Numbered from the stretch's first letter, positions 7,556 to 51,304 are shown. The stretch: 64,000 bases of DNA from Opitutaceae bacterium (GCA_014376585.1 JACMRG010000255.1:1-64000); one strand, 5' to 3'. Program-made: numbers and translations. Notes: generated by a model not told the origin, from the letters alone.

Positions 7556-7619
7556 GTTGTGATGGAAAAGATGCCCGTCCGATGACACGAGGGTGAAAGC
7601 GGAGGGTGCGCAAATTTGC

Positions 7620-8063: not shown

Positions 8064-8137
8064 GCGGGGGAGGGGGGAGGGGCGAGAGAGGAGGGTAGCG
8101 AAGGGTCAGAGGGGTGGGAATTTCCAAAAACGTGCGT

Positions 8138-8380: not shown

Positions 8381-8394
8381 CGGTGCTTCCGTCC

Positions 8395-8889
8395 TTACGC
8401 GTGGGGCGTTGCGCGGATGTCGCTCTTGCCGCCGGTTTTTTCAAGCAGGCGCACGTCTTTGATGACGATGTCGTGGCTCACCGCCTTGCCCATGTCGTAG
8501 AGCGTGAGCGCGGCGACCGTTGCGCCGGTGAGCGCTTCCATCTCGACGCCGGTCTTCGCGTGCGTCTCTGCGCTGCACGTGATGACGACCTCGGTCGAGC
8601 CGTCGGCGGCGGGCGGGCGGCTCTCGATTTGGATTTTGCAATCGTCGAGCGGCAATGGGTGGCAGAGCGGGATGAGCTCGCTCGTCTTCTTTGCGCCCAT
8701 GATGCCGGCGAGGATCGCGGTCTGGAAGACCGGCCCTTTCTTTGTCGCGATGTCGCCGTCGCGCAGCAGCGTCGCGAGTGCGGGCGGCAGCACTACGATG
8801 GCGACGGCGCGCGCGACCCGATGGGTCGCGGCTTTGGCGCCGGCGTTGACCATCGCGGGCTGGCCTTTGGCGTCGAGGTGGGAGAGCAT
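8395..8889 (-). CDS. moaC: Cyclic pyranopterin monophosphate synthase
   Basis: MoaC acts after MoaA in making cPMP from GTP. The start at 8889 (MLSHLDAKGQPAMVNAG) gives 164 residues, the usual length, and matches the family N-terminus. A start at 8898 (MHAM) would also work. Visible motifs are GPVFQTAILAGIMGAKKTSELIPLCHPL, including the conserved LCHPL, then GVEMEALTGATVAALTLYDMGKA and the final KTGGKSD. The glycine-rich K.GGKSD end is part of the active site. It lies between moeA and moaD on the same strand. Confidence 0.93.
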   Translation of the reverse strand: MLSHLDAKGQPAMVNAGAKAATHRVARAVAIVVLPPALATLLRDGDIATKKGPVFQTAILAGIMGAKKTSELIPLCHPLPLDDCKIQIESRPPAADGSTEVVITCSAETHAKTGVEMEALTGATVAALTLYDMGKAVSHDIVIKDVRLLEKTGGKSDIRATPHA

Positions 8890-8957
8890 CGCGTGCATTT
8901 CATGCACGAACGCCGAACGCTCAACGTTCAACTTTCAACGTCTACCAGAAACCGATC

Positions 8958-10175
8958 TCACACCCATGGCGTAAACGGCACCACCGTGCCCGCCGGGAAC
9001 TCATCCTGCTCCGCGGGTAATTCGACAAAGCCATCCGTGCCGACGAGCCCCGCGAAATCTCCCGAGGTGTTCACCGTTTCCGGCGAGGCCAGCAGTTCCG
9101 CGCGCGGTCCACTACTCAGCGTCACGGGCATCAGGCTCGCGAGCTTCGGCTTGAAAATCACCGGCGCCGCCAGCGCCGCCATGCGCGTTGCGGTCAGGGT
9201 CGCACCGCTCGCATGTGCCAGCGCCGGCAGCACGTAACGATGCAGGCAGGTGTAACTCGAAACGGGATTGCCCGGCAGCGCGAAGATCGGCGTCGCGCGT
9301 GCGCTCAGCCCAAACCAAAACGGTTTGCCCGGTCGCTGCGCCACGCCGTGAAAGATTTTCTTCACGCCTTGGCGCGTGAGTTCCTCGGGTAAAAAATCGA
9401 ATTTCCCCTTCGAGATGCCGCCCGTGATCAGCAGCACGTCGTATTCGGCGAGCAGGTGCCACAACAGGTGCTCGACCTCGTGCCGCACATCGCGCACGTG
9501 AAATCGCTCCACGCGCGGATAACCCGCCAGCGTGAGCGCCGCGCGCAACGCCTGATCGTTGCTCCGCCGGATCTGGTGCGGTGCCACGGCCGCCTCGACC
9601 TCCACCAACTCATCGCCGGTCGTCACGATCGCGATCCTCGGCGAGTGCGCGACCGTGAGCGTCGCATAGCCGCACGCCGCGGCCACCGCGATTTCGCGGC
9701 CCGTCAATCGCGTGCCGGCGCGCACGATCACGGTGCCGGCGCGATGATCGCTGCCGCGTCGATGGAGGGCGTTGCCCGCCGGAAATTCGCCCGCCGAATC
9801 GCTGCTCACCTTCATCGCGCCACCGGCCGTTACCTTCGTGGTTTCCTCGTAAGGCACGACGCAATCCGCGCCTGTCGGCAACACCGCGCCTGTCATGATC
9901 TCCACGCACGCTTCTGCTGCCGCGCCGAGCGTCCGCGGCACCATGCCCGCCGCTTGCACGCCCTCGATACGAAACGTCCGCGTGCCCGCCGCCAGCGCCG
10001 CCGCGCGCAACGCGTAGCCGTCCATCGTCACGCGATCAAACGGCGGCAGGTCGCGGTCCGCGCGCAGGTCCGCGCGCAACACCCGCCCGGTCACCGTCGC
10101 GAGCGGGCAGTCCTCCCGGTGAAACAGGGGAATGTTCTCGCGGATCAGCCGTTCGGCTTCGCTGGGGGTGAGCAT
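8958..10175 (-). CDS. moeA: Molybdopterin molybdenumtransferase
   Basis: MoeA inserts molybdate into adenylated molybdopterin, giving the active cofactor. The 405-residue protein has the family layout. The N-terminal linker region carries DRDLPPFDRVTMDGYALR, and the MPT-binding domain has IMTGAVLPTGADCVVPYEET. TTGDELVE and LLITGGISKGKFDFLPEELTRQGV follow, with GLPGNPVSS-like FALPGNPVSSYTCLHR near the end. It is the first gene of the leftward moe/moa run and is divergent from moaA, with 112 bp between the two starts. This spacer probably holds promoters for both, but no clear boxes or Moco riboswitch were recognised in it. Confidence 0.94.
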   Translation of the reverse strand: MLTPSEAERLIRENIPLFHREDCPLATVTGRVLRADLRADRDLPPFDRVTMDGYALRAAALAAGTRTFRIEGVQAAGMVPRTLGAAAEACVEIMTGAVLPTGADCVVPYEETTKVTAGGAMKVSSDSAGEFPAGNALHRRGSDHRAGTVIVRAGTRLTGREIAVAAACGYATLTVAHSPRIAIVTTGDELVEVEAAVAPHQIRRSNDQALRAALTLAGYPRVERFHVRDVRHEVEHLLWHLLAEYDVLLITGGISKGKFDFLPEELTRQGVKKIFHGVAQRPGKPFWFGLSARATPIFALPGNPVSSYTCLHRYVLPALAHASGATLTATRMAALAAPVIFKPKLASLMPVTLSSGPRAELLASPETVNTSGDFAGLVGTDGFVELPAEQDEFPAGTVVPFTPWV

Positions 10176-10287
10176 GGGGTGGTGGCGATGTTCGCTTCAC
10201 CGTTTGTTTCCGAGCGCCCGCGTCGGGGCGAACGAAAATTCGTCGTTTCCTTTGCTTCCTCGTCTTCGTCACATTCGTTGCTCTCCC

Positions 10288-11304
10288 ATGCCCGGCCCCC
10301 GTGATCAATTTCAGCGTCCGCTCCGTGATCTCCGCATCTCGGTCACGGATCGCTGCAATTTCCGCTGCCCCTACTGCATGCCGAAAGAGGTCTTCGGCCC
10401 CGGCCACGCCTTCCTGCGCGATCCGCAACTGATGTCGCTCGGCGAACTCACCCGCACCGCGAAGGCGTTCACCACTCTTGGCGTCGAAAAAATCCGCCTT
10501 ACGGGCGGAGAACCGCTTCTGCGCCCCGACGTTCCCGATCTCGTCGCCGCGCTCAAACACGACCTCGGCCTGCGCGACGTCGCCCTCACCACCAACGGTT
10601 GGCTCCTCGAAAAACTCGCGCCCGCCCTCCGCGTCGCCGGCCTCGACCGCGTCAACGTCTCCGTCGATTCCCTCGACGACATCACCGCCGGCAAACTCAA
10701 CGGCCTCGGCTTTAGCGTCGCCCGCGTCCTCCGCGGCATCGATGCCGCCGCCGCGCTCGGCCTGCCCGTGAAAATCAACTGCGTGATCCAGCGCGGCGTG
10801 AACGACGGCGAACTCCTCGAACTCTGCGACTACTTCCGCGCCCGTGGCCACGCGCTCCGCTTCATCGAGTTCATGGATGTCGGCAACACCAACCGCTGGA
10901 GCGCCGAGCGCGTCGTGCCCGCCCGTGAACTCGTCGCCCGCATCGGCGAAAAATGGTCGCTCGAACCCGTCGGCCCCGCCTATCGCGGCGAGGTCGCCTC
11001 GCGCTACCGCTACACCGACGGTCGCGGCGAAATCGGTCTGATCAGCTCCGTCACCGAGCCATTCTGCCGCGACTGCCACCGCGCGCGTCTCTCCGCCGAC
11101 GGCAAACTCTTCACCTGCCTCTTTGCCTCGCTCGGTTGGGATGTGCTCGGCTGCCTCCGCGCCGGCGCCGACGACAGCGAACTCGCCGCCTACCTCGCCC
11201 GCATCTGGCGTGGCCGCGAAGACCGCTACAGCGACGAACGCGCCGGCCTCCTCGCCGCCGGCGAATTCCGCGCGAAGATCGTGATGAGCTATATCGGCGG
11301 TTGA
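10288..11304 (+). CDS. moaA: GTP 3',8-cyclase (radical SAM)
   Basis: MoaA makes the first molybdenum cofactor intermediate from GTP by radical chemistry. The start at ATG 10288 (MPGPRDQFQRPLRDLRISVT) gives 338 residues. The radical SAM cluster motif CNFRCPYC is near residue 23, KIRLTGGEPLLR supplies the SAM site, and the second cluster is formed by FCRDCHR with a later cysteine in KLFTC. The protein ends YIGG, matching the C-terminal double glycine needed by MoaA. It is divergent from moeA and followed by a VapBC pair. Confidence 0.94.
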   Translation: MPGPRDQFQRPLRDLRISVTDRCNFRCPYCMPKEVFGPGHAFLRDPQLMSLGELTRTAKAFTTLGVEKIRLTGGEPLLRPDVPDLVAALKHDLGLRDVALTTNGWLLEKLAPALRVAGLDRVNVSVDSLDDITAGKLNGLGFSVARVLRGIDAAAALGLPVKINCVIQRGVNDGELLELCDYFRARGHALRFIEFMDVGNTNRWSAERVVPARELVARIGEKWSLEPVGPAYRGEVASRYRYTDGRGEIGLISSVTEPFCRDCHRARLSADGKLFTCLFASLGWDVLGCLRAGADDSELAAYLARIWRGREDRYSDERAGLLAAGEFRAKIVMSYIGG

Positions 11305-11355
11305 GACCAAATCCGCGACTTGCCCACACCTCGGAGCCGCATTTTGTGTGTAGCC

Positions 11356-11559
11356 ATGAAACGCACCAACATTGTCCTCGACCAGACTCTCGTGCGCCAA
11401 GGCTTGAAACACACCGGCCTGAAAACCCGGCGCGCCTTGGTTCATCACGCACTGACCGAACTGGTGCGGCGTGAACAACAGCTCGGTTTTCTCGCGCTCA
11501 AAGGCAAAGTGGGGTGGTCCGGTGACCTCGGTCGGATGCGGGCCAAACGCTTCGCATGA
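11356..11559 (+). CDS. vapB: VapB-type antitoxin
   Basis: This 67-residue protein (MKRTNIVLDQTLVRQGLKHT, then GLKTRRALVHHALTELVRRE) has the ribbon-helix-helix layout of type II VapB antitoxins (DUF2191-like). The C-terminal tail (GDLGRMRAKRF) would wrap around the toxin. It overlaps the downstream PIN toxin by four bases (ATGA at 11556-11559), the usual coupling of such pairs. It should neutralise the toxin and repress its own promoter. Confidence 0.85.
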   Translation: MKRTNIVLDQTLVRQGLKHTGLKTRRALVHHALTELVRREQQLGFLALKGKVGWSGDLGRMRAKRFA

Positions 11560-11948
11560 AGGTGTTGGTCGATTCGACCGTCTGGATTGATTTCCTGCGC
11601 GGCCGCGCGACATCGCAGACGGCGAGACTGGAGCAATGCCTGCACAGCCGCGACGACCTCTGTTGCTGTGGCTTTGTCCTGGCGGAAGTCTTGCAGGGCG
11701 TCCGCACCGAATCCGAATACGTCGCCACCAAGCGCCAATTTGAAACCCTGGTTTATCTGGAGGCCGACCGCTCCACGTTTGAATTGGGCGCCACGATCTA
11801 TCGCGAACTACGTCGCAAGGGTGTCTCCATCCGAAACTCCATCGACTGCCTTATCGCCGCCGTCGTGATTCAGCATGGCGTTCACCTACTGGAAAACGAC
11901 CGCGACTATCGTTTCATCGACCAGCACTACCCGCTCGATCGACTTTAA
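11556..11948 (+). CDS. vapC: VapC-type PIN-domain toxin
   Basis: This 130-residue PIN-domain ribonuclease has acidic residues in the expected places: D in VLVDSTVWIDFLRG at the start, E in GFVLAEVLQGV, D in RNSIDCLIAAVVI and D in LLENDRDYRFI. Such toxins cut tRNA or rRNA when the antitoxin is degraded. The gene starts inside the last codons of vapB, and its stop overlaps the convergent gmk stop by four bases. It appears intact. Confidence 0.88.
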   Translation: MKVLVDSTVWIDFLRGRATSQTARLEQCLHSRDDLCCCGFVLAEVLQGVRTESEYVATKRQFETLVYLEADRSTFELGATIYRELRRKGVSIRNSIDCLIAAVVIQHGVHLLENDRDYRFIDQHYPLDRL

Positions 11949-12562
11949 GCCGCCCGCGCCCGCGCGATGGCCAAAATCTTCAGCAGCGCGGCGAAATCTT
12001 CGTTGCGCGAGGCGCTGTGGATCACGAACTCGAACTTCGGCGCTTCCAGCAGCTCGGCCTCGGCCGTGGCCATCCGACGCGCGATTTCCGCATCGTCGTC
12101 CTGACCTCGTCCGCGGATGCGCGCCACGAGTTGTTCGTGATCGAGGAGAATAAAAATCGCCGCCATCGCGCGTTTGAGGGCGGGGGACTGTTCCGCCGCG
12201 CGACGCAGGCTGTCCACGCCCTGCACGTCGAGATTGATTGCGAGACTCTGCCCGCGTGAAAGCGGCTCGATCACGCTGGCTTTCAGCGTGCCATAGCGCC
12301 GTTCGCCGTGGACCCACGCCCACTCGAGGAACTCACCCGCTGCGATCTTCGCATCAAACTGCGCCGGCGTGAGAAAATGATAATGCACGCCGTTCACCTC
12401 GCCCGGCCGCGGCGCGCGCGTAGTCGTCGTGATGACGCGCTCAAAACCCGGCACCTCGTGCACGACCCGGTCGCACAGCGTGCTCTTGCCCGAGCCCGCC
12501 GGGCCCGCGAGGACGAGGAGCGCCGGCGCGTTGTTGGTGGAAGTAGAAGAGGGGACCGACAT
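11945..12562 (-). CDS. gmk: Guanylate kinase
   Basis: Gmk phosphorylates GMP to GDP with ATP, in nucleotide metabolism. The start at 12562 (MSVPSSTSTNNAPALLVLAG) gives 205 residues. The P-loop GPAGSGKST is followed by FERVITTTTRAPRPGEVNGVHYHFL, the GMP-binding region, and then FLEWAWVHGERRYGT. The C-terminal helices read HSASRNEDFAALLKIL. An in-frame extension upstream to 12631 lacks family similarity. Its stop overlaps that of the convergent vapC by four bases. Confidence 0.93.
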   Translation of the reverse strand: MSVPSSTSTNNAPALLVLAGPAGSGKSTLCDRVVHEVPGFERVITTTTRAPRPGEVNGVHYHFLTPAQFDAKIAAGEFLEWAWVHGERRYGTLKASVIEPLSRGQSLAINLDVQGVDSLRRAAEQSPALKRAMAAIFILLDHEQLVARIRGRGQDDDAEIARRMATAEAELLEAPKFEFVIHSASRNEDFAALLKILAIARARAA

Positions 12563-12606
12563 GCGAAAATTAAAAGTCTGCGTTCCGAATCGCTCCGCGC
12601 CGTCGC

Positions 12607-13146
12607 TCAGTAGGTGAACGCCACGATGCACAATAGCAGTCCGTAGCCCGCCGCCACGCCGCCCGCGATCTTAGCTCGGCCCGGCACCACGAAGAGCCAG
12701 TTCAACCAGTCGCGCATGCGCCAGGGTTGCGCACCGAGCCAGATCGCCGCCGCGATCGCGACATAAACGAGGCTCACCATGAGCAGCCGCTGCGGCTTGG
12801 CCCACTCCATGTAGGCCGGTTCGAGGAGCGGCGTCGCGCCCAGCAAAATGATCGCACACAGCCCGCGCACCGATAGGAAATCCGGCACGCACTTAAATGC
12901 CAGCACCGCCACGATCAGAAAGCCCACGAAGAGCAGTTTCCGATACTCGCCCATGTCAGCCATCGAGAGATTCCAGATATTAAACAAAAACCAAGCCGCG
13001 CCCGTGCCGAAGAAAACGTAGGTCGCCGCCGTGGAGCGCGGCAACGATTTCAGCGCCGCACCGACCATCGAGTTGCCGAGCAGAAGCGGCACGCCCAGCA
13101 CGAGCAAGATGAGGCCGGGAATGAGAGTGGCGACAGTGAGTGACAT
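12607..13146 (-). CDS. Integral membrane protein of unknown function
   Basis: This 179-residue protein has about six hydrophobic segments: near residues 5-25 (LIPGLILLVLGVPLLLG), 40-60, 70-90, 95-110, 120-137 and 155-178. It lies between gmk and miaB on the same strand (39 bp after miaB, 44 bp before gmk), so the three are probably one transcription unit. No family was recognised and no catalytic motif stands out. Confidence 0.75.
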   Translation of the reverse strand: MSLTVATLIPGLILLVLGVPLLLGNSMVGAALKSLPRSTAATYVFFGTGAAWFLFNIWNLSMADMGEYRKLLFVGFLIVAVLAFKCVPDFLSVRGLCAIILLGATPLLEPAYMEWAKPQRLLMVSLVYVAIAAAIWLGAQPWRMRDWLNWLFVVPGRAKIAGGVAAGYGLLLCIVAFTY

Positions 13147-13185
13147 CGTGAAAATAGGGATTTGAGGGAGGATGGTGCGGTGCGC

Positions 13186-14607
13186 TTACGCTTCGACGCC
13201 GCACAAGACCAGCTCGCCGTAGAGCGTGCTGACGCTCGCACGCTCGATGAGCAGTGGCACGAGCTGGCCAATCAGGCGCGGATTCGCATCAAAGATGCAC
13301 ACCCGGTTGCCGCGCGTGCGGCCGGTGAATTTCTTGCCCGTCTTATCCGGCCCCTCGACGAGCACTTCCTCGACCTTGCCAACCAAGGTGGCGTTACGGC
13401 GCACAGAATTTTTTTGGAGCAGCCCGAGCAGGGTGGCGTTGCGCGCCTCCTTTACGTCGTCGGAAATCTGGTCGCCCATCACCGCCGCCGGCGTGCCGCT
13501 GCGAATCGAGTATTTGAAGACGTAGGCCATGTCGTAGTTGGCCCGTTCAAAAAGATCGCGCGTCTGCTCGAACTCCTCGTCCGTCTCACCCGGGAAACCC
13601 ACGATGATATCCGTCGAGAAATACATGTCCGGCCGCACGGCGCGCAACGCCTCGACAATCTCGAAATAACGCTCGCGCGTATACGGCCGGTTCATCGCGC
13701 GCAGGATGCGGTTGCTGCCCGACTGCATCGGCAGATGCACGTAGCCGCACAATTTCGGCATCCGCCCATAGGCCTCGACGAGATCCTGCTTAAACCCGCG
13801 CGGGTGAGGCGACGTGAACCGAATCCGCTCGATCCCCTCGATGGCATGCACGCGGTCGAGCAGCTGCACGAACGGCGAAATCCCCTCCGTGTGCACGTAG
13901 TCGCGCCGCCCGTAGCTCGTCACGATCTGCCCGAGCAACGTCACTTCGCGCACACCGCGGTCCGCCAGCGCCCGGCACTCGGCGACGATGTCGTTCATCG
14001 GCCGCGAGCGTTCATCGCCGCGGGTTTTCGGCACGATGCAGAACGCGCAATCCATGTTGCACCCCTGTTGAATGGAAACGAAAGCGCTGATCTGCGGCGG
14101 CACGTCCGCGTCCATGGCAACGTCTCCGTCCGCGCCCGCCGCCGCCGCGGCTGCATCCTGGGTCAGCACGTGGTCGCGAATCGTATTTTGTGAACCCACT
14201 TCTTCGGCGATATCCACAATGCTGCTCGCGATGGGCACTCCCGCCGCCCGCGCCGCGCGGATGTTGTCCAAGTAATCCGGCACCTGGTGAAATTTTTGCG
14301 TGCCCACGATCAGGTCCACGTCCGGCAACTTATCCAGCAGCTCGGCCCCGCGGTTCTGCGCCATGCAACCCAGGATCCCCAACACAAAGTCCGGCTGCTT
14401 GCGTTTGCGATGCGCAATGTTCGCCGCCTTGCCGATCGCCTTCTGCTCCGCTGCGTCACGCACGCTGCAGGTGTTGAGCAGCAACACGTCGCAATCGTCC
14501 TCGCTCGCCACGATCCGGTAGCCCCGCGCACGCAACATCGCCGCAACCGCCTCGCTGTCGCGCTCGTTCATCTGGCACCCGTAGGTTTTGATGTGGACCC
14601 GATTCAT
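13186..14607 (-). CDS. miaB: tRNA-2-methylthio-N6-dimethylallyladenosine synthase
   Basis: MiaB adds a methylthio group to i6A37 of tRNAs reading UNN codons, using two iron-sulfur clusters and SAM. The start at 14607 gives MNRVHIKTYGCQMNERDSE and 473 residues. The UPF0004 domain has cysteines in TYGCQMN, LNTCSVR and GILGCMAQ. The radical SAM motif is CNMDCAFC in SIQQGCNMDCAFCIVPKTRG. The TRAM domain is at the end (GRTRGNRVCIF). Oddly, between the two domains lies an alanine/aspartate-rich stretch (AAAAAAGADGDVAMDADVPP) not usual for the family. Confidence 0.93.
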   Translation of the reverse strand: MNRVHIKTYGCQMNERDSEAVAAMLRARGYRIVASEDDCDVLLLNTCSVRDAAEQKAIGKAANIAHRKRKQPDFVLGILGCMAQNRGAELLDKLPDVDLIVGTQKFHQVPDYLDNIRAARAAGVPIASSIVDIAEEVGSQNTIRDHVLTQDAAAAAAGADGDVAMDADVPPQISAFVSIQQGCNMDCAFCIVPKTRGDERSRPMNDIVAECRALADRGVREVTLLGQIVTSYGRRDYVHTEGISPFVQLLDRVHAIEGIERIRFTSPHPRGFKQDLVEAYGRMPKLCGYVHLPMQSGSNRILRAMNRPYTRERYFEIVEALRAVRPDMYFSTDIIVGFPGETDEEFEQTRDLFERANYDMAYVFKYSIRSGTPAAVMGDQISDDVKEARNATLLGLLQKNSVRRNATLVGKVEEVLVEGPDKTGKKFTGRTRGNRVCIFDANPRLIGQLVPLLIERASVSTLYGELVLCGVEA

Positions 14608-41268: not shown

Positions 41269-42564
41269 ATGTTTCCAGAAATCACCCGCTCTCTCCGCGA
41301 TCTCTACCTCAATGACCCGCGCCCCTGGATGATCGGATTTAGCGGCGGCAAAGACAGTTCGCTGGTTGCCCACCTGATATTTGACGCGGTGCTGAGCATC
41401 CCCGCCGACCAGCGCACCAAGGAGATTCACCTGCTTTGCACGGACACGCGCGTGGAAATTCCCGCAGTCGTGGAAACCATCGAGGGCACCTTGGCCAAGA
41501 TGCAGCGGGCGTCGGACGACCAAGGCTTGGGCATCAGCACCCATCTCCTGCGGCCACCGCCTGAACAGAGCTTCTGGGTTAATATTATCGGTCGTGGTTA
41601 CCCGCCACCAAACCGCGTTTTTCGCTGGTGCACCCAGCGGATGAAAATCGACCCGGTAAACGTCTTCGTCGAGCGCTGGCTGGGCCGCGATGGTGAGGCG
41701 ATTCTCCACCTCGGCGCTCGCCGTTCGGAAAGCGCCTCCCGCGCCCAAACTCTCGCCGATTACGAGGTGCGCAACGGCCTCCGCAAACACCCCGACCTTC
41801 CCCGCGTCGCCGTCTCCAACCCCATCGAAAATCTCATGACTGAGGAGGTCTGGGCTTACCTCCTCCAAAACCCGGCACCATGGGGCGGCACGCACAAGGA
41901 GCTTTACCGGCTCTACAACAATGCCGGCGGCGGCGAATGCCCCATCCATATCGACACCAGCACGCCCAGTTGCGGTTCGTCCCGCTTTGGCTGCTGGACC
42001 TGCACGGTAGTCGAGCGCGACAAAGCCAGCGAGGGCCTTTTGGCCAGCGGCGACGACCGCATGGAGCCGCTCATCGCTTTCCGTGCCCGCCTTCAATATT
42101 ACCAAGACCCGGAGAATAAGCAGCGCGACCGCGTGCGCATGAACGGCACGCAGACCGACACCAGTTGGGGGCCGCTCCTCATGTCGGCCCGCAAAGAATT
42201 GTTGAAAGAGCTACTTGCGCTTCAGCAAGAGACCGAACTTCGTCTTATCACTGATGAAGAATTGCTGCTCATCCAGCAGATGTGGAAAGGGGCGCGTGAC
42301 CCCGACGACGGGCGGGGCGTCGCCCGTATTCTCAATGCTCAAAGCGGTCTCCCCATGAATGACGTGCGGAAAACCTCTCGCCTGCGTCGCTTGGAAGCCG
42401 AAATCGCGGAGGAACAGAATCTGAATGCGGACACCCTGCTGCGCTTGGTGAGCAAGGTGGACGAATATAGTGAATCCCAACGCGCCCATGGTTTGCAGGC
42501 CGCGCTACGAAGCATATTGGAAGACGATTTGCGGGAGTCGGGTGCGAGCCAAAGCAAAGACTGA
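41269..42564 (+). CDS. dndC: DNA phosphorothioation protein DndC (PAPS-reductase-like)
   Basis: DndC is an ATP-pyrophosphatase with an iron-sulfur cluster, thought to activate the DNA backbone and help insert sulfur. The start at ATG 41269 (MFPEITRSLRDLYLNDPRPW) gives 431 residues. The PP-loop SGGKDSS is at residues 25-31. RWCTQRMKIDPVNVF (Cys121) and CGSSRFGCWTC (Cys235, Cys242, Cys245) supply the likely four cluster ligands. SILHLGARRSES-like ILHLGARRSESASRA is also present. It is followed by dndD after only 6 bp. The family is usually somewhat longer, but all core motifs are here. It opens the island next to recA. Confidence 0.9.
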   Translation: MFPEITRSLRDLYLNDPRPWMIGFSGGKDSSLVAHLIFDAVLSIPADQRTKEIHLLCTDTRVEIPAVVETIEGTLAKMQRASDDQGLGISTHLLRPPPEQSFWVNIIGRGYPPPNRVFRWCTQRMKIDPVNVFVERWLGRDGEAILHLGARRSESASRAQTLADYEVRNGLRKHPDLPRVAVSNPIENLMTEEVWAYLLQNPAPWGGTHKELYRLYNNAGGGECPIHIDTSTPSCGSSRFGCWTCTVVERDKASEGLLASGDDRMEPLIAFRARLQYYQDPENKQRDRVRMNGTQTDTSWGPLLMSARKELLKELLALQQETELRLITDEELLLIQQMWKGARDPDDGRGVARILNAQSGLPMNDVRKTSRLRRLEAEIAEEQNLNADTLLRLVSKVDEYSESQRAHGLQAALRSILEDDLRESGASQSKD

Positions 42565-42570
42565 TTTTCG

Positions 42571-44658
42571 ATGGCAAATCAGATTTCAATCGAGTCGCTT
42601 GAGCTGACGAATTTTGGTCCGTTTTATGACCATAACGTCATCGATTTTAAGGTCGATAAACGCCGTCCTCCCCACGTCCTGATTGGCGGCCAAAATGGTG
42701 CGGGCAAAACGCACCTACTGCGCGCATTGTATCTGGGGGTTGCCGGCCGAGTTGGCATGGGTGATCTCAAAGACGTTGAAGCCAACGCTTCGGGAGCCAC
42801 GAAATTCAACCTCGATCACTTGCTCAATCGCCGGGCCCGACGCGAGGGTGCCGATACCTGCTCGGTCCGGGTGAAGATTTTGCAGCGGGATGCCGATTCG
42901 GGCAAAGAGCGCACGCTGACTCTACATCGTGATATTCACTTCCGGCCCAATTCAGCGCCCAATTGGATTTCATGGGCGGAAAGTTCGGACAATAAAACCA
43001 AGATTGAAGACGGAGACATGATCGAGCGACTGCGTGATGTCTTTATGCCGCGGGTTCTTGCGCGGTTCTTCTTTTTCGATGCCGAAAAGAGCCAGAATTT
43101 TCAGCTGGGCGAAAAGGATATTCTTGAAGGTATCAGCCGCATTTTGGGTCTGTGGTCCTACGAGCAACTGGAGGAGCATCTCCGAACGGTTTACGCCAAA
43201 GCCAATAGCGAGCTGACAAAAGATGGGGCGAGTAATGCGACCGCGAAACTGGCAACTGCGAGCGGCGAGGTAACGCGACTCAAAGGAGAAATCCAAGGCG
43301 AGACGTTGGAGATCAAACGCATCACGACCGAACTGCTGGAGACCGAGGCAGAGCTGCTAAATATCGAGGACCGGCTGAAGACCATCGGGGCCATCGACCC
43401 GAAAAAACTGTCCGATAATCAAAGCAGCCGCGAGGCTGCTGCTACGGCGAAAGCCAAGCTGGTAGGTAAGCTTCAACATGCGTGGGAACTTGCGCTCCCC
43501 GTCGAACTCCTCGGCGACTTGCGCGCGAAGCTGGCCGTGCAACTTGATAACGAGCAGCGCCGCCGCAATTGGGAAGACCGCCGCGATGCAGTCGCTCCGC
43601 AGCTCCCGATTATCCAAGGTAAAGTTTTTAGTGACGCCCCGGCCGAATTTGCGCTGCCAGACGATACGCTCAGTTTCTACGCCGCGCGCCTTGAGAAGGC
43701 GCTGAAGGGGTTGTTCGAGCCGCCGCCCGAGGGTGTTGATACCGTCAATATTCACCTGACCGCTACTGCCGAAGCCGGCTTGGCCGTGCGCCAGTTGCTT
43801 TCGCGTGGAGCCGACGGTTTGGCCGACATCGCCGAAGCCAGTCAGCAACTCGAACTCATCGAGGCCGACGTTGCGCGCCTCGACTTGGAAATTCGCCAGC
43901 AGATGCACAACACCGAGGCCATCGGAGCCGGCCGCGCGCTGCACGAACAACGCGGCGCATTGCAGGCGAAGGCGGCACAACTCAAGCGCGACATCGGTGA
44001 CCGCGAGGCCAAGCTGACTCGGCTGGAGCAGGCGCTCACCGAGCAGATTGGCCTGGAAACCCAGTATGCCGGCGCGGTCGCTCTCGCCGAAAAGGGCCGC
44101 AGCCTCGCGACTCGCGCGAGTGCTTACCGCGTCGCGGCGGGTGAGCTGCGGAAACGCGCCTCCGACCGGATGCGCTCCAAGATAAACGAAAAGGTGGGCG
44201 ATCTTTGGCTCGATATCATGGGCCGCCGGCGTGAATTCAGCGGCATGATGTTCGATGCACACTGGGGTTGCCATCTCGTGCGCAAGAACGGCGAAAAAGT
44301 GCCGTGGGATGACCTCAACACCTCGGCCGGCCAACGTCAGGTGCGCCTCCTGGCCTTTTACGAGGCGCTGCGGCGTCTCGCCCAGTCGGTGCCGCCGCTC
44401 GTGGTGGATACGCCGCTCGGCCGACTCGACAAAGAGGTGCGCGACGCCGTGCTCAGCAAACTCTACCTGAGCGACGACGGTCACCAGTCCATCGTGCTTT
44501 CTACCAACGCCGAGATCGACCCAGAGGGAGAACTCTTCGCCAAGATGCGCTACCGCTTTGGCAAAGCCTACACTCTCATCCCTCACGGCAAGCCGGACAG
44601 CGAAGACTACGAAGTGGAAATTCAGCCGCACTACTTCGACCGCAAGGTCACGCTATGA
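42571..44658 (+). CDS. dndD: DNA phosphorothioation protein DndD (SMC-like ATPase)
   Basis: DndD is an SMC/Rad50-like ATPase required for phosphorothioation, probably altering DNA structure for the modification complex. The 695-residue protein has Walker A GGQNGAGKT (residues 39-47) after the typical LTNFGPFYDHNVIDF. It then has long coiled-coil stretches (about 210-290 and 430-540). The C-terminal head has the signature-like NTSAGQRQVRLLAFYEAL and Walker B PLVVDTPLGRLD. The next gene starts inside its stop codon (ATGA, 44655-44658), so translation is coupled. Confidence 0.92.
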   Translation: MANQISIESLELTNFGPFYDHNVIDFKVDKRRPPHVLIGGQNGAGKTHLLRALYLGVAGRVGMGDLKDVEANASGATKFNLDHLLNRRARREGADTCSVRVKILQRDADSGKERTLTLHRDIHFRPNSAPNWISWAESSDNKTKIEDGDMIERLRDVFMPRVLARFFFFDAEKSQNFQLGEKDILEGISRILGLWSYEQLEEHLRTVYAKANSELTKDGASNATAKLATASGEVTRLKGEIQGETLEIKRITTELLETEAELLNIEDRLKTIGAIDPKKLSDNQSSREAAATAKAKLVGKLQHAWELALPVELLGDLRAKLAVQLDNEQRRRNWEDRRDAVAPQLPIIQGKVFSDAPAEFALPDDTLSFYAARLEKALKGLFEPPPEGVDTVNIHLTATAEAGLAVRQLLSRGADGLADIAEASQQLELIEADVARLDLEIRQQMHNTEAIGAGRALHEQRGALQAKAAQLKRDIGDREAKLTRLEQALTEQIGLETQYAGAVALAEKGRSLATRASAYRVAAGELRKRASDRMRSKINEKVGDLWLDIMGRRREFSGMMFDAHWGCHLVRKNGEKVPWDDLNTSAGQRQVRLLAFYEALRRLAQSVPPLVVDTPLGRLDKEVRDAVLSKLYLSDDGHQSIVLSTNAEIDPEGELFAKMRYRFGKAYTLIPHGKPDSEDYEVEIQPHYFDRKVTL

Positions 44659-45089
44659 GGCCCTACGATCCTCCCGTTTGCGATGAGCCGGTGGGTGGCG
44701 TCGCCGAGTGCCCGGAATTGCAGGAGGCGCTGGAAGCGGGCGATTTTCGCCCGGGTGGTGACACGTTTGTTGTCCCCGTCGATACCAGAGGCTGGGTGTT
44801 TGAAAAAGCCGAGGACATCGGGCGCTACCGGCTGCCGGGAAAACTCGAGTCGTATATGTATCGCGTGCAGCGCGTCACTCACCCGACTGATGCGAGCCGA
44901 CGTGAGCTGTGGCACGCGTTTGGCGAATATTGCTGGCGTGGGCGCACCGCGAGCGATGCGGATTATATCTTTCTCGACGGCGGCGGCTATTTCTCCAATC
45001 GCGCCGCAGCTTTATGGGCGATCCACCTATGGGTAGCCTACCTCTACAAGAAAGAGGCCACCGTCGGGAAAATCGCACATGGCGCTTAA
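44655..45089 (+). CDS. Unknown small protein inside the dnd operon
   Basis: A 144-residue protein (MRPYDPPVCDEPVGGVAECP) that overlaps dndD by 4 bases and the next gene by 11. The first half is acidic and contains TFVVPVDTRGWVFEKAEDIG. The second half has RELWHAFGEYCWRGR, SDADYIFLDGGGYFSNRAAA and an aromatic, partly hydrophobic end (LWAIHLWVAYLYKKE). It does not resemble DndE, DndB or any Dnd protein I know. Its tight coupling means it is probably made in step with DndD and DndE and may be a subunit or regulator. Confidence 0.85.
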   Translation: MRPYDPPVCDEPVGGVAECPELQEALEAGDFRPGGDTFVVPVDTRGWVFEKAEDIGRYRLPGKLESYMYRVQRVTHPTDASRRELWHAFGEYCWRGRTASDADYIFLDGGGYFSNRAAALWAIHLWVAYLYKKEATVGKIAHGA

Positions 45090-46572
45090 CACCAGCAAAG
45101 AAGCGGACGAGACCATCGAGAGCATCCACCCGAGAGTGGGCGCCGAGACCAAGGCCGTGCTGGGTCGCTCCGCTATCTGCCTCGCACTCGCCGAGGGTGT
45201 GCCAAGCGATTTCAAAGCGCCGGCCGCGCTGGGTAAAAGTCTGAGTTCCGACGCGCTCTTCGGCGAATTGGAGCCCGTCATCCGGGCTGCCCTCAATTTC
45301 CGAGCGGGCAAAACTCTCAGCGAGGCGCAACAGACCCACGAACTCCGCCGCCATTTCGAGTGGGGCTGCCAGCTCATGCGCCGCATCTGGGAAGATGAAG
45401 TCGGCCGCGATCAAGGTAAGTTCATTGTCGAACTCTTGCGCCGCTCGAAGATTTCCGGCGAAGCGCGCTCACCCGGCGCTGCGCCCACCTCGGCCGTTAA
45501 GTCCAAAGCCGTGGTGGAGACGGAGGTGAAGCTCAAGCTGCTCACCGATGCCGAGCCTTGGAGTCTCAACGGTCCCGGCACTAACAATGGGCTGCTGGTG
45601 GTGTCCGGCGCGCCGGGCTCGGGCAAAAGTCAGCTCGCGTTGGACATTCTCGCCCAGCTTTCCGGCCAGGGAGTGCGCTTCGTGTTCTTCGATCTCAAAG
45701 GAGAGCTGGAGGATGAGCCCAACAACGAGCGGCAACAGGCGACACGGAAAAAATTCCTGTCGCAGACCAACGCGAGCTACGTGCGTCTCATCCGCGACGA
45801 GTTGCCGATCAACCCGCTCTGGCGCGACAGCAGCGAGACGATCAACAACCAGTCGGCCTACGAAATCGCATCGTTGTTCAGCGCCTTCGTTCCGCAGTTG
45901 GGGGCAAAGCAGGTCGGCCAGTTGGTGGAGGCTTATCAGGCGATGGAGCGCCCCGATTTCACGAACTGGCTGGTGGAGTTGGAAAAACTGGGCGGCACCG
46001 GCGTGCATCGCGAGACGCTGAAACGCATCTGCGACGTGAATCTTTTCGCCACCGCCGAGACAGCCGTGCCGTTGGAGCAATGGTTGGCGCGCTCACTCGT
46101 CATCGACTTCAAGCAATTCGGCAACGACGACGTGACCAAGAGCCTCGCCGTCGCGCTGATCCTGAATCTGCTGATGAAACGCCTCAACACGCAGCTTTCT
46201 CCCAAAGACGGCGTGCAGCCACTGAAGATGGTGCTCTTCGTGGACGAGGCCCACCTCCTGCTCCCGAAAGAAGGCAAGATCGGCCTCCTGGGTTCGCTCG
46301 CGCGGCAGGGCCGGTCGTGGGGCTTTCCGGTGTGGCTCGCGTCGCAAGACGCCGACGCCTTCGAGACGAGTGGCGACAAGGCCGTGGATTTTGCCGAGCT
46401 GGCCGAGTGCGGCATCCACCTCACCCCGCAGACGCTCTCGCCTGCCGGCCAGAAACGCGTGCTGGGCGAAACGCTCCCGCGAGCCCTGAAAAAAGGCGAA
46501 GCCGCGGTGAAGATCGCGGGCACACTGAGTCTAGGGAAAGCGCGTCAGTATCACCGGGACGGAGGGATCTAA
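45079..46572 (+). CDS. dndE: DndE fused to a HerA-like ATPase (DndEi type)
   Basis: This 497-residue protein begins with a DndE-like region (residues 1-125: LNTSKEADETIESIHPRVGA, AVLGRSAICLALAEGVP, RRHFEWGCQLMRRIWEDE). DndE binds DNA in phosphorothioation. A linker leads to a P-loop ATPase with Walker A GAPGSGKS (177-184) and FFDLKGEL, then Walker B MVLFVDEAHLLL (384-395) and WLASQDADAFE, as in HerA/FtsK-type translocases. DndE joined to a helicase-like domain has been described as DndEi in Riemerella (from memory). It overlaps the preceding gene by 11 bases and ends the dnd operon proper. Confidence 0.85.
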   Translation: MALNTSKEADETIESIHPRVGAETKAVLGRSAICLALAEGVPSDFKAPAALGKSLSSDALFGELEPVIRAALNFRAGKTLSEAQQTHELRRHFEWGCQLMRRIWEDEVGRDQGKFIVELLRRSKISGEARSPGAAPTSAVKSKAVVETEVKLKLLTDAEPWSLNGPGTNNGLLVVSGAPGSGKSQLALDILAQLSGQGVRFVFFDLKGELEDEPNNERQQATRKKFLSQTNASYVRLIRDELPINPLWRDSSETINNQSAYEIASLFSAFVPQLGAKQVGQLVEAYQAMERPDFTNWLVELEKLGGTGVHRETLKRICDVNLFATAETAVPLEQWLARSLVIDFKQFGNDDVTKSLAVALILNLLMKRLNTQLSPKDGVQPLKMVLFVDEAHLLLPKEGKIGLLGSLARQGRSWGFPVWLASQDADAFETSGDKAVDFAELAECGIHLTPQTLSPAGQKRVLGETLPRALKKGEAAVKIAGTLSLGKARQYHRDGGI

Positions 46573-46590
46573 CGCCATCGTAATCACCCT

Positions 46591-47925
46591 ATGAGTGAAA
46601 CAACCATCAACGCCTCCCCTACAAAGGAGTTTTTTATCCATATGCTGACGCGTGATGTGCTCCTCACTCGCGCAATTATTGACTTGGTGGATAACTCGGT
46701 AGACGGCGCGAAGCGCCTGCGTCCGGATGGAAATTTCGGCGGCCTGAAGATTCTCATTCGAGTTTCGCCAGAAGAATTTAGAATCGAAGACAATTGTGGA
46801 GGTATTCCTGTTGGAATCGCCCGGGATTACGCATTCCGATTTGGAAGACCGAAAGATGCGCCAAATACGACTAGTTCGGTGGGCCAGTTTGGCGTAGGCA
46901 TGAAGCGCACATTTTTTAAGTTGGGGCGCTTTTTTCAGGTAGATTCCGCGACCGCAATAAGTCGGTTTGAGATGGATGTGAACGTTGACGATTGGCTCAA
47001 CCAAGGAGGGGAGACAGATTCTTGGCATTTTGAATTCAAGACTCTCGTGGAAAATACAGCGATGAATCCCGAAATTGTGGGCACGCGAATTGTGGTGAAT
47101 CAGCTTCTTGAAGAACCCCGAAATGCTTTTTCTAGAAACAGTTTCTTAAAAGAACTCGAAGATGGATTGTCTGAAGGACATGCGCTTGTTCTCGCCGCGG
47201 GTTTGGAGATTTCGCTAAATAGTGTTCATCTATCCAATCATCCGCTCGAGCTGCTCAGTTCGACCGAGATAGTGCCTGCTTATCTTGAGAAAAACTTTTA
47301 TGAGACAGACCCGTATCCTGCAAAAGTTCGGATATACGCCGGAATATCACGGCGTCAGAAAATGGACGGTGGTTGGTATGTGTTCTGCAATGGGAGAATG
47401 GTAGTGCGTGCAGACCAAACGCTCCTGACGGGGTGGGGTGAAGGTGAGGGTAAGACGATGCCAAAATACCATCCGGATTTCGCGTTTTTCCGGGGCTATG
47501 TTTTCTTTGATTGTGAAGACGCGTCAAAATTGCCTTGGACGACGACCAAAACGGGTGTCGATGCGGATTCATGGCTTTACCGAGCGGTTCGTGAAGATGT
47601 AATCCAGATTTCGAAGCCGGTGTTAAAATTCCTGAGAGACCTAGCTGCTGAACGTGCCGAAGTAGCCTCTGGTGATCGTAGCACATCGTCGCTCGAAAAA
47701 GCGGTGGAGCGTAGCGCAGACTGCGCAATCACGAAGATTGCGCCCGCCCTCACATTCGTTGGCCCACGCCCTCCTCAAATCACCGGGCCAAAAATGCAAA
47801 AGATTCAATACTCTAAGCCGGCCGATGAAGTGGATGAGGTAAAGGCAAGTTTGGGGGTGCGGAACTTTACGGAAGTAGGTCTCCGCACGTTCGAATACTA
47901 TCGGGACTACGAAATGGGACGCTGA
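46591..47925 (+). CDS. GHKL-type ATPase, probable defence component
   Basis: A 444-residue protein with a GHKL (Hsp90/MutL-type) fold at the N-terminus: IIDLVDNSVDGA (29-40), RIEDNCGGIP (64-73) and SVGQFGVGMKRTFFKLG (96-112) for the lid. The usual catalytic Glu of the first motif is Asp31 here. A second domain follows, with YPAKVRIYAGISRRQKMDGG and WYVFCNGRMVVRADQT, the layout of the S5-like domain of MutL-like proteins. The base composition is clearly AT-richer than the dnd genes, 18 bp upstream. The next gene starts inside its stop region (shared base at 47925). The function is not known to me. Confidence 0.78.
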   Translation: MSETTINASPTKEFFIHMLTRDVLLTRAIIDLVDNSVDGAKRLRPDGNFGGLKILIRVSPEEFRIEDNCGGIPVGIARDYAFRFGRPKDAPNTTSSVGQFGVGMKRTFFKLGRFFQVDSATAISRFEMDVNVDDWLNQGGETDSWHFEFKTLVENTAMNPEIVGTRIVVNQLLEEPRNAFSRNSFLKELEDGLSEGHALVLAAGLEISLNSVHLSNHPLELLSSTEIVPAYLEKNFYETDPYPAKVRIYAGISRRQKMDGGWYVFCNGRMVVRADQTLLTGWGEGEGKTMPKYHPDFAFFRGYVFFDCEDASKLPWTTTKTGVDADSWLYRAVREDVIQISKPVLKFLRDLAAERAEVASGDRSTSSLEKAVERSADCAITKIAPALTFVGPRPPQITGPKMQKIQYSKPADEVDEVKASLGVRNFTEVGLRTFEYYRDYEMGR

Positions 47926-48914
47926 TGGCTAGTTTTCGAGAAATTGACTACTCGGTCCGTCCGGCAAAATCGGTGGAACGAAAGATGATGGCCGAAGCAT
48001 TCCGGCGTTTGGAGTTGGGCTGGCCACTATCTTCTTATCGTTACGTCGGGATGGGATCTGTTTATTTCGCCGATTTTCAGCTCTTTCATCAGTCGCTCGG
48101 TATACATGAGATGGTGAGTATCGAACGGGAGAAACAGTATGAAACGCGCTTTGAATTTAACCGTCCCTTCCGCTGCGTGCAGATTGAATTTGGTGAGTCG
48201 TCGGATGTTCTCAACGCTATCACTTGGGACAAGCGTTCTATTGTTTGGCTGGATTACGACGGGCAACTCGATGCATCCGTGATCGCGGATCTTCAGACTG
48301 TGGTTCAGAAAGCCGCTTCAGGCAGCATGATTGTCGTCTCAGTCAACGCGGAATCTGACCGCCCTCCAGCAGACGTGACTGATCCTGAAATTAAGGACAA
48401 GTGGAGGCTCGCAGAGTTTGAGGCGAGAGTGGGCGCCATGTCCGTGCCTGCGGGTTTAAAAGGCGATGAGTTGCGGGGAAAGTTACTTGCCGGCGTTTGT
48501 TGGCGGGTTCTCACAGCCAAGGTATCTGAGCAATTGGCCAAACGGAATGGCCGTCCAGATGTGCGATCAGACACTGCGTTCGCGGATCAAGTTTTCCATT
48601 TTCGCTATGCGGATGGAGCGTCGATGCTAACGGTGGGTTGGTTGATTTACTCCCACGAAGATCAACACCTCGCTCAGCGTTGTAATATGAAAGGATCTGT
48701 CTTCAGAGACGGAAATACATCGCTCTCGATCGAGGCGCCGAAACTAACGCCGAAAGAAATCCGGCATCTCAACGCTGAGTTACCGGATGGACCGCCAGTC
48801 GCAGCGGATACGCTTGTTCGCGTCAGAGAAAAGACAGGTATTATGGAGGCAGATCTTAACAAGTTTGCTTCAGTCTACCGCTATTACCCGCAATACGGCG
48901 AAATAGTTTTGTAA
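47925..48914 (+). CDS. Methyltransferase-fold protein, partner of the GHKL ATPase
   Basis: A 329-residue protein (MASFREIDYSVRPAKSVERK). It has a Rossmann-like core: RYVGMGSVYFADF (39-51) like a SAM motif I, MVSIEREKQYETRF (63-76) for the second strand and acidic residue, and SIVWLDYDGQLD (105-116) in the motif IV position. The N-terminal YS.RPAK..ERKMM.EAF helix and the C-terminal NKFASVYRYYPQYGEI look family-specific. Whether it methylates anything is not clear. It shares low GC and a one-base junction with the GHKL gene, so the two form one module. It lies at the end of the island. Confidence 0.72.
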   Translation: MASFREIDYSVRPAKSVERKMMAEAFRRLELGWPLSSYRYVGMGSVYFADFQLFHQSLGIHEMVSIEREKQYETRFEFNRPFRCVQIEFGESSDVLNAITWDKRSIVWLDYDGQLDASVIADLQTVVQKAASGSMIVVSVNAESDRPPADVTDPEIKDKWRLAEFEARVGAMSVPAGLKGDELRGKLLAGVCWRVLTAKVSEQLAKRNGRPDVRSDTAFADQVFHFRYADGASMLTVGWLIYSHEDQHLAQRCNMKGSVFRDGNTSLSIEAPKLTPKEIRHLNAELPDGPPVAADTLVRVREKTGIMEADLNKFASVYRYYPQYGEIVL

Positions 48915-49183: not shown

Positions 49184-49417
49184 ATGAAATCGGTCAACGT
49201 CCACGAGGCCAAGACGCAGTTTTCCGGTATGCTCGCGGAGATCGAGGCCACGCGCACCAGTTTCGTGATCTGCCGGAACGGCGAGCCGGTCGCCGACCTC
49301 GTGCCACACCGTCGCAAAGTTTCCATGTCGCCCGACCCCAAGCTCGGGGCCTTCAAAATCGGCTACGATGCGACCGAGGAACTCGGCGAGAGCGAGTGGC
49401 CCGCCGACGCGCGATGA
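49184..49417 (+). CDS. Phd/YefM-type antitoxin
   Basis: A 77-residue protein (MKSVNVHEAKTQFSGMLAEI) with the Phd N-terminal fold: NVHEAKTQFS.ML, then VICRNGEPVADLVPHRR. The tail (ATEELGESEWPADAR) would wrap the toxin. It overlaps the PIN toxin by four bases (49414-49417). It should repress its own promoter and neutralise the toxin. Confidence 0.88.
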   Translation: MKSVNVHEAKTQFSGMLAEIEATRTSFVICRNGEPVADLVPHRRKVSMSPDPKLGAFKIGYDATEELGESEWPADAR

Positions 49418-49791
49418 TCCTCGATACCTGCGCGCTGCTGTTTCTCGCCAATGGCGACCGGAGACTCACGGCGACTACGCGCGCGCGGCTGGGCACGCTG
49501 CCGGTGCGCTGGTTCTGCGCCATCAGCACCTTTGAAATCGCGCTCAAACAGGCCGATGGAAAATTGCCGCTGCCGTCTGCCGCCCAGACGTGGATGGAGG
49601 AAGTGGCGGAGCGGTATGCCTTGACCGAAGTGGTCGTTGATTCGGCGCTGTGCGCCGCCGCCGTCGCCCTGCCGATGCATCACCGAGACCCGTGCGACCG
49701 CTTCATCATCGCGGCGGCCCTGCGCCTCGCCGTGCCGGTCGTGACCATCGATCAAAAGTTTGCCGCCTACGGGGTGACGGTTGTGGCCTGA
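49414..49791 (+). CDS. VapC-type PIN-domain toxin
   Basis: A 125-residue PIN protein (MILDTCALLFLANGDRRLTA). Asp in LDTCALLF, Glu in FCAISTFEIALKQADG, and Asp in HHRDPCDRFIIAAALRL and TIDQKF form the usual acidic site. It is translationally coupled to the Phd antitoxin. Its last codons run up to a second, decayed pair on the opposite strand. Confidence 0.88.
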   Translation: MILDTCALLFLANGDRRLTATTRARLGTLPVRWFCAISTFEIALKQADGKLPLPSAAQTWMEEVAERYALTEVVVDSALCAAAVALPMHHRDPCDRFIIAAALRLAVPVVTIDQKFAAYGVTVVA

Positions 49792-50173: not shown

Positions 50174-51304
50174 TTAGCGATGCAAGCGCCCGACGGCAGC
50201 AACTACAGAGCACACAGCGGCTGTGACGTCGGCCGCCGTGTTTTCTCGTCCGAGCGAAAACCGCACCATCTGGCGCGAGGCGGTGCCATCGGGCTTCATC
50301 GCGCGGACGACGTGGGAGGGTTCGTCGGAATCCGCGAGACACGCTGAGCCGGCGGAGGCACAGATGCCGGCTTGGTCGAGTAGCAGGAGCAACGCTTCGG
50401 ATTCGATGCCGGGGAAGGTGAGGTTGGTCGTGTTGGGCAGGCGCTGCGTGGCGTGGCCGTTGCGCTCGGCGTGGGGGATGCGGGCGAGAAGTTCGGTTTC
50501 GAGGCGGTCTCGGAGCGGTTGGACGGTCGTGGCGTAGCCGGGCAGTTCGGCGCGGGCGAGCGCGGCGGCGTGGCCGAGGCCGGCGATACCGGCGACGTTT
50601 TCGGTGCCGCCGCGACGTCCGCGTTCCTGATGACCACCGTGGAGATAGGCCGTGAACGGCGCGGTCTTGCGCACGAAGAGCGCGCCCACGCCTTTCGGGC
50701 CGCCCAGCTTGTGCGCGCTCAACGACAGGTAGTCGATGGGCAGGGTTTTCAGGTTGATAGGGAGTTTGCCGACGGCCTGCACGGCGTCGCAGTGAAACCG
50801 CACGCCGCGCTGCTGGCAGAGCGCGGCGATGGCTGCGACCGGGAAGAGCACGCCCGTCTCGTTATTTGCCCACATGAGCGAGACGACGGCGGTGTCAGGA
50901 GTGAGGGCGGCTTCGAGGGCGGCGATGTCGAGCAGGCCCTCGCGATCCACGGGCAGGCGCGTGACGCGGTAGCCGTGTTTTTCGAGGAAGATGGTGTGAG
51001 TGAGCACAGCCGAGTGCTCGACGGCGGAGGTGATGATGTGACGCTTGGCGGGGTCGGCGGAGAGCGCGGCGTAAAGGGCCGTGTTGTTGCTCTCGGTCGC
51101 GCTGCCGGTGAAGACGACTTCACGGCCGGAAGCACCGATCAGCGCGGCGACGTGGCCGCGGGCCTCCTCGATCACGCCCTTGAGCTGCGAACCAAACGCG
51201 TAGCTGCTGCTAGGGTTGCCCCAGCGCTCCGTGAGAAATGGGCGCATGACCTCGAACACTTCCGGGCGAAGCGGCGTGGTGGCATTGTGGTCGAGGTAGA
51301 TCAT
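50174..51304 (-). CDS. Cysteine desulfurase, NifS/DndA-like
   Basis: This 376-residue PLP enzyme takes sulfur from cysteine as a persulfide. MIYLDHNATTPLRPEVFEVM opens the protein. TGSATESNNTALYAA binds PLP and LSAHKLGGPKGVGA holds the PLP lysine (Lys199). The persulfide cysteine is Cys322 in GICASAGSACLADSDEPSH. The short, non-extended active-site loop fits the NifS/IscS group, which also includes DndA. It may serve iron-sulfur assembly in general. Since it lies 1.3 kb from the dnd island, which lacks its own dndA, it could also supply sulfur to DndC. No iscU or other isc gene is next to it. Confidence 0.9.
   Translation of the reverse strand: MIYLDHNATTPLRPEVFEVMRPFLTERWGNPSSSYAFGSQLKGVIEEARGHVAALIGASGREVVFTGSATESNNTALYAALSADPAKRHIITSAVEHSAVLTHTIFLEKHGYRVTRLPVDREGLLDIAALEAALTPDTAVVSLMWANNETGVLFPVAAIAALCQQRGVRFHCDAVQAVGKLPINLKTLPIDYLSLSAHKLGGPKGVGALFVRKTAPFTAYLHGGHQERGRRGGTENVAGIAGLGHAAALARAELPGYATTVQPLRDRLETELLARIPHAERNGHATQRLPNTTNLTFPGIESEALLLLLDQAGICASAGSACLADSDEPSHVVRAMKPDGTASRQMVRFSLGRENTAADVTAAVCSVVAAVGRLHR

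Follow-up and report, generated by a model that had tools for sequence, protein, structure and literature searches.

DndFGH is absent from most Dnd modification loci, and the attacker of unmarked DNA there remains an open question (PMC10853773). DndEi, one form of DndE, has been described (Zheng 2016, as cited in PMC7464106), as has the fusion of DndE to HerA (PMC10853773), and PbeABCD combines a CxC-type ABC ATPase with an HKD-SF2 helicase (PMC10853773). Here, we analyze a DndEi-type locus in a 64,000-nucleotide stretch of an Opitutaceae bacterium (GCA_014376585.1, JACMRG010000255.1:1-64000), hereafter the window, in which six genes, dndC-dndD-U-dndEi-GHKL-MT35, form an operon at positions 41269–48914. 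Neither the DndEi form nor the missing DndFGH is new; what is added here is the link to Dnd of the last two genes, which encode a GHKL ATPase and a Methyltransf_35 protein (MT35). From sequence comparisons, we consider it somewhat probable that this operon, together with a nearby DndA-type desulfurase, constitutes a phosphorothioate-based defense system with GHKL/MT35 as its effector.

The Operon and Its Two Additional Genes

An earlier annotation of this DNA (the sequence-only reading) closed the cluster at 46572, but two genes follow (46591–48914), which were missed along with the nearby DndA-like desulfurase. The GHKL gene (444 residues) starts 18 bp past dndEi and overlaps the MT35 gene (329 residues) by 1 bp. 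Its product carries the GHKL motifs and an S5-type middle domain with a conserved lysine, as in MORC/paraMORC ATPases, and the ATP-binding motifs DNxxDG, DNCGG and GxxGxGxKR, as well as TTK, are conserved in 14 aligned homologues. Along most of its length, the AlphaFold 2 model of this protein (predicted local distance difference test, pLDDT, 84) aligns with MORC2; Foldseek returned Hsp90-family and MORC2 ATPase structures, the best listed by TM-score being MORC2-DNA (0.51–0.53 of query), and an hmmsearch against solved structures returned MORC4 alone (E value 0.01). By hhalign, the GHKL protein is unrelated to DndD. MT35 scores 328 bits against PF20553 (cut-off 27), and its AlphaFold 2 model (pLDDT 80) has an S-adenosylmethionine (SAM)-methyltransferase fold, with the tRNA guanine methyltransferase Trm1 as the best match in the PDB. 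The conserved glycine motif, Glu67 and WLDY motif leave the SAM motifs intact, such that MT35 is, from fold and motifs, a predicted SAM-methyltransferase, and on account of this fold a disguised nuclease was rejected.

In all six loci where the pair accompanies dnd genes, its G+C content lies 2–11 points under that of dndCDE, with the largest gap in the window (0.49–0.51 vs 0.60), which fits a module with a separate history that has specialized on Dnd. PADLOC-DB 2.0.0 holds a model for neither GHKL nor MT35, in any version of the proteins tested, and in the text of open-licence papers (figures and supplements aside, where the cassette may be drawn unnamed) none names Methyltransf_35 and none ties GHKL ATPases to Dnd.

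The preceding four genes were located correctly by the sequence-only reading, including the orphan of 144 residues (U) and the DndE-HerA fusion, and the close spacing it described is confirmed (6 bp between dndC and dndD, with overlaps of 4 bp for dndD/U and 11 bp for U/dndEi). DndC scores 388 bits against TIGR03183 (cut-off 290 bits) and has the expected PP-loop (SGGKDS) and six cysteines, every one invariant in an alignment with two relatives; the open reading frame begins at a TTG at 41251, and the ATG at 41269 matches a relative's start when aligned. DndEi likewise exceeds the cut-off for its family (PF08870, 32.8 bits against 25), followed by AAA_10/HerA_C domains with Walker A (GAPGSGKS) and Walker B (LFVDEAH) motifs. 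For DndD, the strongest NCBIfam model is TIGR03185, whose 175 bits stay under the equivalog cut-off of 246 bits, and the PADLOC models DndD and PbeC tie (~1e-57). No CxC or CxxC motif was found in the window DndD, arguing against a PbeABCD-type ABC ATPase, and the operon has no helicase gene such as the HKD-SF2 helicase that PbeABCD requires. Judged by its sequence, this protein is probably a divergent member of the DndD family. The HerA domain of DndEi has mad8 of MADS as its best PADLOC match (5e-19), with DndH at 3e-12.

Comparison of DndCDEi Loci

A scan of genome contigs with a single DndEi sequence gave no match, and one with a three-sequence alignment succeeded, returning, at one genome per species, 19 loci (one being that of genome G235), which with the window and genome G066 make 21 distinct loci. 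Relatives of the window DndEi in 19 further loci, mostly from metagenome-assembled genomes, are 45–63% identical to it; within the phylum DndEi is uncommon, with 3 of 388 genomes carrying it. All 21 loci have dndC and dndEi, and dndD was recovered from every locus but L009 and L025. On the 3′ side of dndEi, the GHKL/MT35 pair is present in six loci (the window, L008, L010, L012, L017 and L018), DndB in nine, neither in six, and both in none, giving a one-sided Fisher value of 0.017 for the alternation of pair and DndB at the same place when phylogeny is ignored. The order dndC-D-Ei-GHKL-MT35, with a convergent desulfurase, recurs in five further loci, and the pair-bearing Dnd loci span Verrucomicrobiota, Acidobacteriota, Nitrospirota and two “Deltaproteobacteria” metagenome-assembled genomes. 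The GHKL gene is single-copy and confined to the dnd locus in five genomes. In a GHKL tree, the Dnd-type proteins form one group (support 88/89) next to a Sinorhizobium copy. The tree of MT35 likewise unites these seven sequences (100/99), and there the Sinorhizobium copy falls within the group.

A homologue of the window desulfurase (about 60–67% identical) adjoins 10 of the 21 DndCDEi loci, including the window, and all six with the pair, lying just 11–21 bases from MT35 in L012, L017 and L018. Within the family of the window genome, it is present in three of three dnd genomes and in one of 11 dnd-less members, and the dnd-less relative G010 has a copy (58% identical) with no dnd genes nearby. 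Because the enzyme is kept beside DndCDEi across phyla and is rare in dnd-less relatives, it is best read as the DndA of this system; a mere housekeeping neighbor is unlikely given this conservation across phyla, the G010 copy notwithstanding.

The slot between dndD and dndEi is variable, holding U, a helical open reading frame of ~90 residues, or an Mrr-type restriction nuclease (with a HARE-HTH match in one of two cases). U has zero matches in Pfam, NCBIfam, PADLOC, PHROGs, plasmids and viral contigs; we nevertheless take it to be a real gene because a protein 40% identical to it occupies the same slot in G066. These two were the only copies among 376 sampled genomes of the phylum, and U was rejected as a general effector, being present in two of the 21 loci. 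The ~90-residue, helical-looking frame fills the slot in L008, L014 and L017. In L009, an HNH protein lies 3′ of dndC; HARE-HTH-REase and HNH proteins are Dnd-linked restriction candidates (PMC10853773).

The GHKL/MT35 Pair outside Dnd Loci

GHKL sequence searches of three phylum samples (376, 297 and 376 genomes), plasmids and phages gave twelve loci without dnd genes. Read individually, each of the twelve proved to have a DNA methyltransferase in its vicinity, mostly within a gene or two, and all but L035 have MT35 together with the GHKL gene. The neighbor is a C5 methyltransferase in L033, L034, L035, L060 and Pseudomonas phage PfAC20 (L056), an N4/N6 methyltransferase in L053, L054 and L061, a type III-like system together with an N4/N6 enzyme in L032, and a DUF499/DUF1156-methylase/PLD-helicase system in L055. 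On a plasmid of Microvirga terrae (L052), the pair lies within a DISARM locus, flanked by an MmeI-like methyltransferase and by DrmA; upstream lie a C5 methyltransferase and a Vsr nuclease. In Sinorhizobium meliloti KH46 (L051), an IS66-like element splits GHKL from MT35 in an apparently broken copy, and a C5 methyltransferase lies ~3 kb off on the opposite strand.

We then consider viral sequences, where the scan of IMG/VR used conserved GHKL motifs alone, such that the methyltransferase association is not built into the set. It yielded 80 viral or prophage loci, 70 with a short-type GHKL protein and 10 with a longer one. MT35 is immediately downstream in 69 of the 70 short-type loci, and a DNA methyltransferase is present in 68; grouping at 50% identity gives 28 clusters, with a methyltransferase in 27 and both in 21. 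The 370 kb of these contigs that lie more than 3 kb away from the GHKL gene yielded not one C5 methyltransferase. The 10 loci with the longer GHKL protein all have a C5 methyltransferase and none has MT35, and it is possible that the longer protein is the two-gene form with its extension standing in for MT35. This longer type (~560–630 residues, with a helical-looking C-terminal extension) adjoins a C5 methyltransferase in L126, L127, L132, L133, L137–L140, L143, L144 and L035.

In E. coli, a cassette of GHKL, Methyltransf_35 and C5 cytosine methyltransferase genes is found in 47 of 5,426 complete genomes, and among the matching records 45 reach ≥99% identity. It lies between the portal gene gpQ and the replication gene gpA in all 21 P2-like contigs having both markers, and this site in P2-like prophages is a hotspot of anti-phage systems (PMC9122126). 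RefSeq labels the three products as ATP-binding protein, O-methyltransferase and DNA cytosine methyltransferase, and nothing more. The same three genes are cargo of the filamentous Pf prophage PfAC20, for which the methyltransferase alone has been listed, as belonging to an incomplete system (PMC11878078). The PfAC20 GHKL protein matches the BbrUII/HgiDII family (NF050001) over its GHKL region, at 2.6e-7 and 29.6 bits (cut-off 550).

Dnd and Ssp Partners

In agreement with the sequence-only reading, the locus holds neither DndB nor DndFGH. DndB is also missing from the remainder of the window and from its genome (91.5% complete, 435 contigs), and no SspE was identified: the sole GmrSD_N (DUF262) protein of the genome is a GmrSD_N + AlbA_2 protein that matches HEC-05 far better than SspE, and was rejected as SspE. 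No DndH was found in the genome, but the same search missed the HerA domain of the window itself, which hmmscan matches at 3e-12, and the dnd_assoc_3 search had no positive control. DndFGH is thus likely, though not provably, absent elsewhere in the genome. The GmrSD_N + AlbA_2 gene (L062, contig C365) is HEC-05-like and is followed by an apparent IS3-type transposase.

Proposed Mechanism and Alternative Explanations

Taking these comparisons into account, the GHKL/MT35 pair is best read as a putative portable, R-like restriction or effector module that would swap between DNA-marking systems. The strongest argument is exchange, in that the same two genes adjoin marking enzymes of different chemistry and, in the smallest systems, are the only other genes present; the pair is a candidate for the missing attack part because elsewhere it occurs almost only beside DNA-methylating enzymes, including at an anti-phage hotspot. 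VcSduA, a GHKL-nuclease fusion, protects against phages (PMC12137116). Following the known biochemistry of the family, the desulfurase, DndC, DndD and DndEi would put sulfur into the host DNA backbone at specific sites. The GHKL ATPase would then load on DNA as a MORC/MutL-like clamp and, with MT35, tell marked from unmarked DNA, and gene context suggests that the pair would act on unmarked incoming DNA to block the invader, possibly through a recruited host nuclease, through MT35 acting on DNA, RNA or protein, or through DNA held in the clamp. We put forward more tentatively, as a possibility we would not favor at present, that GHKL and MT35 are mark-agnostic and nuclease-free, the clamp bringing in a methyltransferase to silence or disable the invader, or to modify a nucleic acid or protein and so stop the infected cell, in versions fitted to C5, N4/N6 and phosphorothioate marks.

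We note, however, several observations that weigh against the pair as effector. No nuclease domain is recognizable in GHKL or MT35, both DndB and the pair are missing from six DndCDEi loci, the Dnd MT35 proteins are not an exclusive group (S. meliloti falls among them), and the BbrUII/HgiDII match belongs to a relative, the window GHKL protein giving none. In addition, the general-base position of the GHKL proteins is Asp in all aligned homologues, and hydrolysis could differ. In MutL-type enzymes, the general base at this position is Glu.

The SAM-methyltransferase fold of MT35, with intact motifs and Trm1 as the nearest solved fold, and the almost constant proximity of marking enzymes would also suit a pair working on the marking side, with MT35 adding a second mark by methylating DNA or a protein bound to it, GHKL remodeling DNA for it, and restriction residing elsewhere. 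This is unlikely in our view, as it would leave the three-gene cassettes at prophage cargo sites without any attack function, and GHKL domains are known in restriction and defense proteins (PMC2292703; PMC12137116), as the BbrUII/HgiDII match also illustrates. That the pair and DndB alternate at one position could instead mean that the pair replaces DndB as a regulator or safety device, controlling expression or shutting off marking. Such a role appears highly doubtful, since the pair also accompanies methyltransferase systems without DndB, a repressor-type DNA-binding domain was not found in it, and DndB may itself be an effector (PMC10853773).

We hold it equally improbable that the effector is another gene, be it U, the VapBC pair (49184–49791), or the unlinked GmrSD_N/AlbA protein on C365. 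Related loci do hold Mrr-type nucleases in the dndD-dndEi slot and, in one case, an HNH protein after dndC, and PIN proteins are named as suicide effectors at Dnd locus borders (PMC10853773); yet L010, L012 and L018 carry the pair without U, VapBC or nucleases, and the C365 protein, besides being unlinked, resembles HEC-05 far more than SspE. The proposal in the sequence-only reading, a variant Dnd system with DndEi whose effector is not DndFGH, is in agreement with all of these findings, but it overlooked the likeliest effector genes.

Other Features of the Locus

All features are listed in Table 1. A Phd-like antitoxin gene and a VapC-like PIN toxin gene separate MT35 from the desulfurase, and a weak PIN match is also present in L014. 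Searches for marks of a mobile island (repeats, tRNAs, Rfam families) gave nothing convincing. The whole window contains 449 occurrences of GAAC/GTTC, a motif known for one Dnd type, vs 596 (standard deviation 21) in dinucleotide shuffles, in which codon use is uncontrolled, hence no conclusion is drawn.

Table 1. Features of the window (64,000 nucleotides) and of the comparison loci, with positions in the respective sequence
Feature	Position	Strand	Evidence or context
dndC, sulfurtransferase/PP-loop ATPase	41269–42564	+	TIGR03183 above cut-off; alignment with relatives
dndD, ABC/SMC-like ATPase	42571–44658	+	TIGR03185 2e-51; PADLOC DndD/PbeC ~1e-57
U, 144-residue protein without known family	44655–45089	+	conserved at same slot in G066
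dndEi, DndE domain fused to HerA/FtsK-type ATPase	45079–46572	+	PF08870 + AAA_10/HerA_C
HerA domain of DndEi	45586–46368		PADLOC mad8, DndH
MORC-like GHKL ATPase (HATPase_c_3), candidate effector subunit 1	46591–47925	+	PF13589 1e-7; AlphaFold 2 model, Foldseek
Methyltransf_35 protein (MT35), candidate effector subunit 2	47925–48914	+	PF20553 7e-98; AlphaFold 2 model
Phd-like antitoxin	49184–49417	+	between MT35 and desulfurase
VapC-like PIN toxin	49396–49791	+	between MT35 and desulfurase
DndA/IscS-type cysteine desulfurase	50174–51304	−	Aminotran_5 3e-80; convergent with operon
Three-gene cassette, L145 (E. coli strain 7/2, NZ_CP023820.1)	5001–8516		gpQ-gpA site
Three-gene cassette, L092	5992–9513		gpQ-gpA site of P2-like prophage
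Three genes, L056 (Pseudomonas phage PfAC20)	280–3711		cargo of filamentous Pf prophage
Pair, L052 (Microvirga terrae plasmid pR24_2)	7971–10385		within DISARM locus
Split pair, L051 (Sinorhizobium meliloti KH46 psymA)	8205–13350		IS66-like element
GmrSD_N + AlbA_2 protein, L062 (contig C365, own genome)	5733–8000		HEC-05-like

Significance and Comparison with Known Systems

If the GHKL/MT35 pair is the effector, it offers a concrete candidate attacker for one class of DndFGH-less Dnd loci, and would explain some “orphan” prophage cytosine methyltransferases (e.g., that of PfAC20) as parts of complete three-gene systems. The presence of a near-identical cassette in dozens of E. coli P2-like prophages makes the idea testable in ordinary laboratory strains, and makes the E. 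coli cassette a candidate anti-phage system ready for laboratory use. Should no nuclease be involved, this would be an unusual form of DNA restriction, linked to the eukaryotic MORC silencing ATPases.

The DndABCDE systems with DndEi of Riemerella and Bacteroidales resemble the window in dndC, dndD, the fusion of DndE to a P-loop ATPase/helicase and a DndA-type desulfurase nearby, whereas the window lacks DndB, has GHKL and MT35 in that position, and carries the additional orphan U. With the IscS-DndBCDE-DndI and DndFGH defense systems (PMC11662687), it shares the proposed logic of a sulfur mark and a reader attacking unmarked DNA, but its operon has neither the DUF262-HNH protein DndI nor DndFGH, and the effector proteins are unrelated. 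The BbrUII/HgiDII restriction enzymes are described by a 659-position profile, against the 444 residues of the window protein, which is without a large C-terminal domain. The window operon contains no Drm genes, whereas DISARM houses the pair in Microvirga terrae. Finally, the MORC/paraMORC GHKL ATPases of restriction-modification systems (PMC2292703) and HEF_HK with Response_reg_2 (PMC8011034) have in common with the pair a GHKL + S5-type ATPase beside DNA methyltransferases; the partner here is MT35 rather than a helicase, nuclease or response regulator, and here the ATPase stands with phosphorothioation genes, a link absent from the passages on those ATPases.

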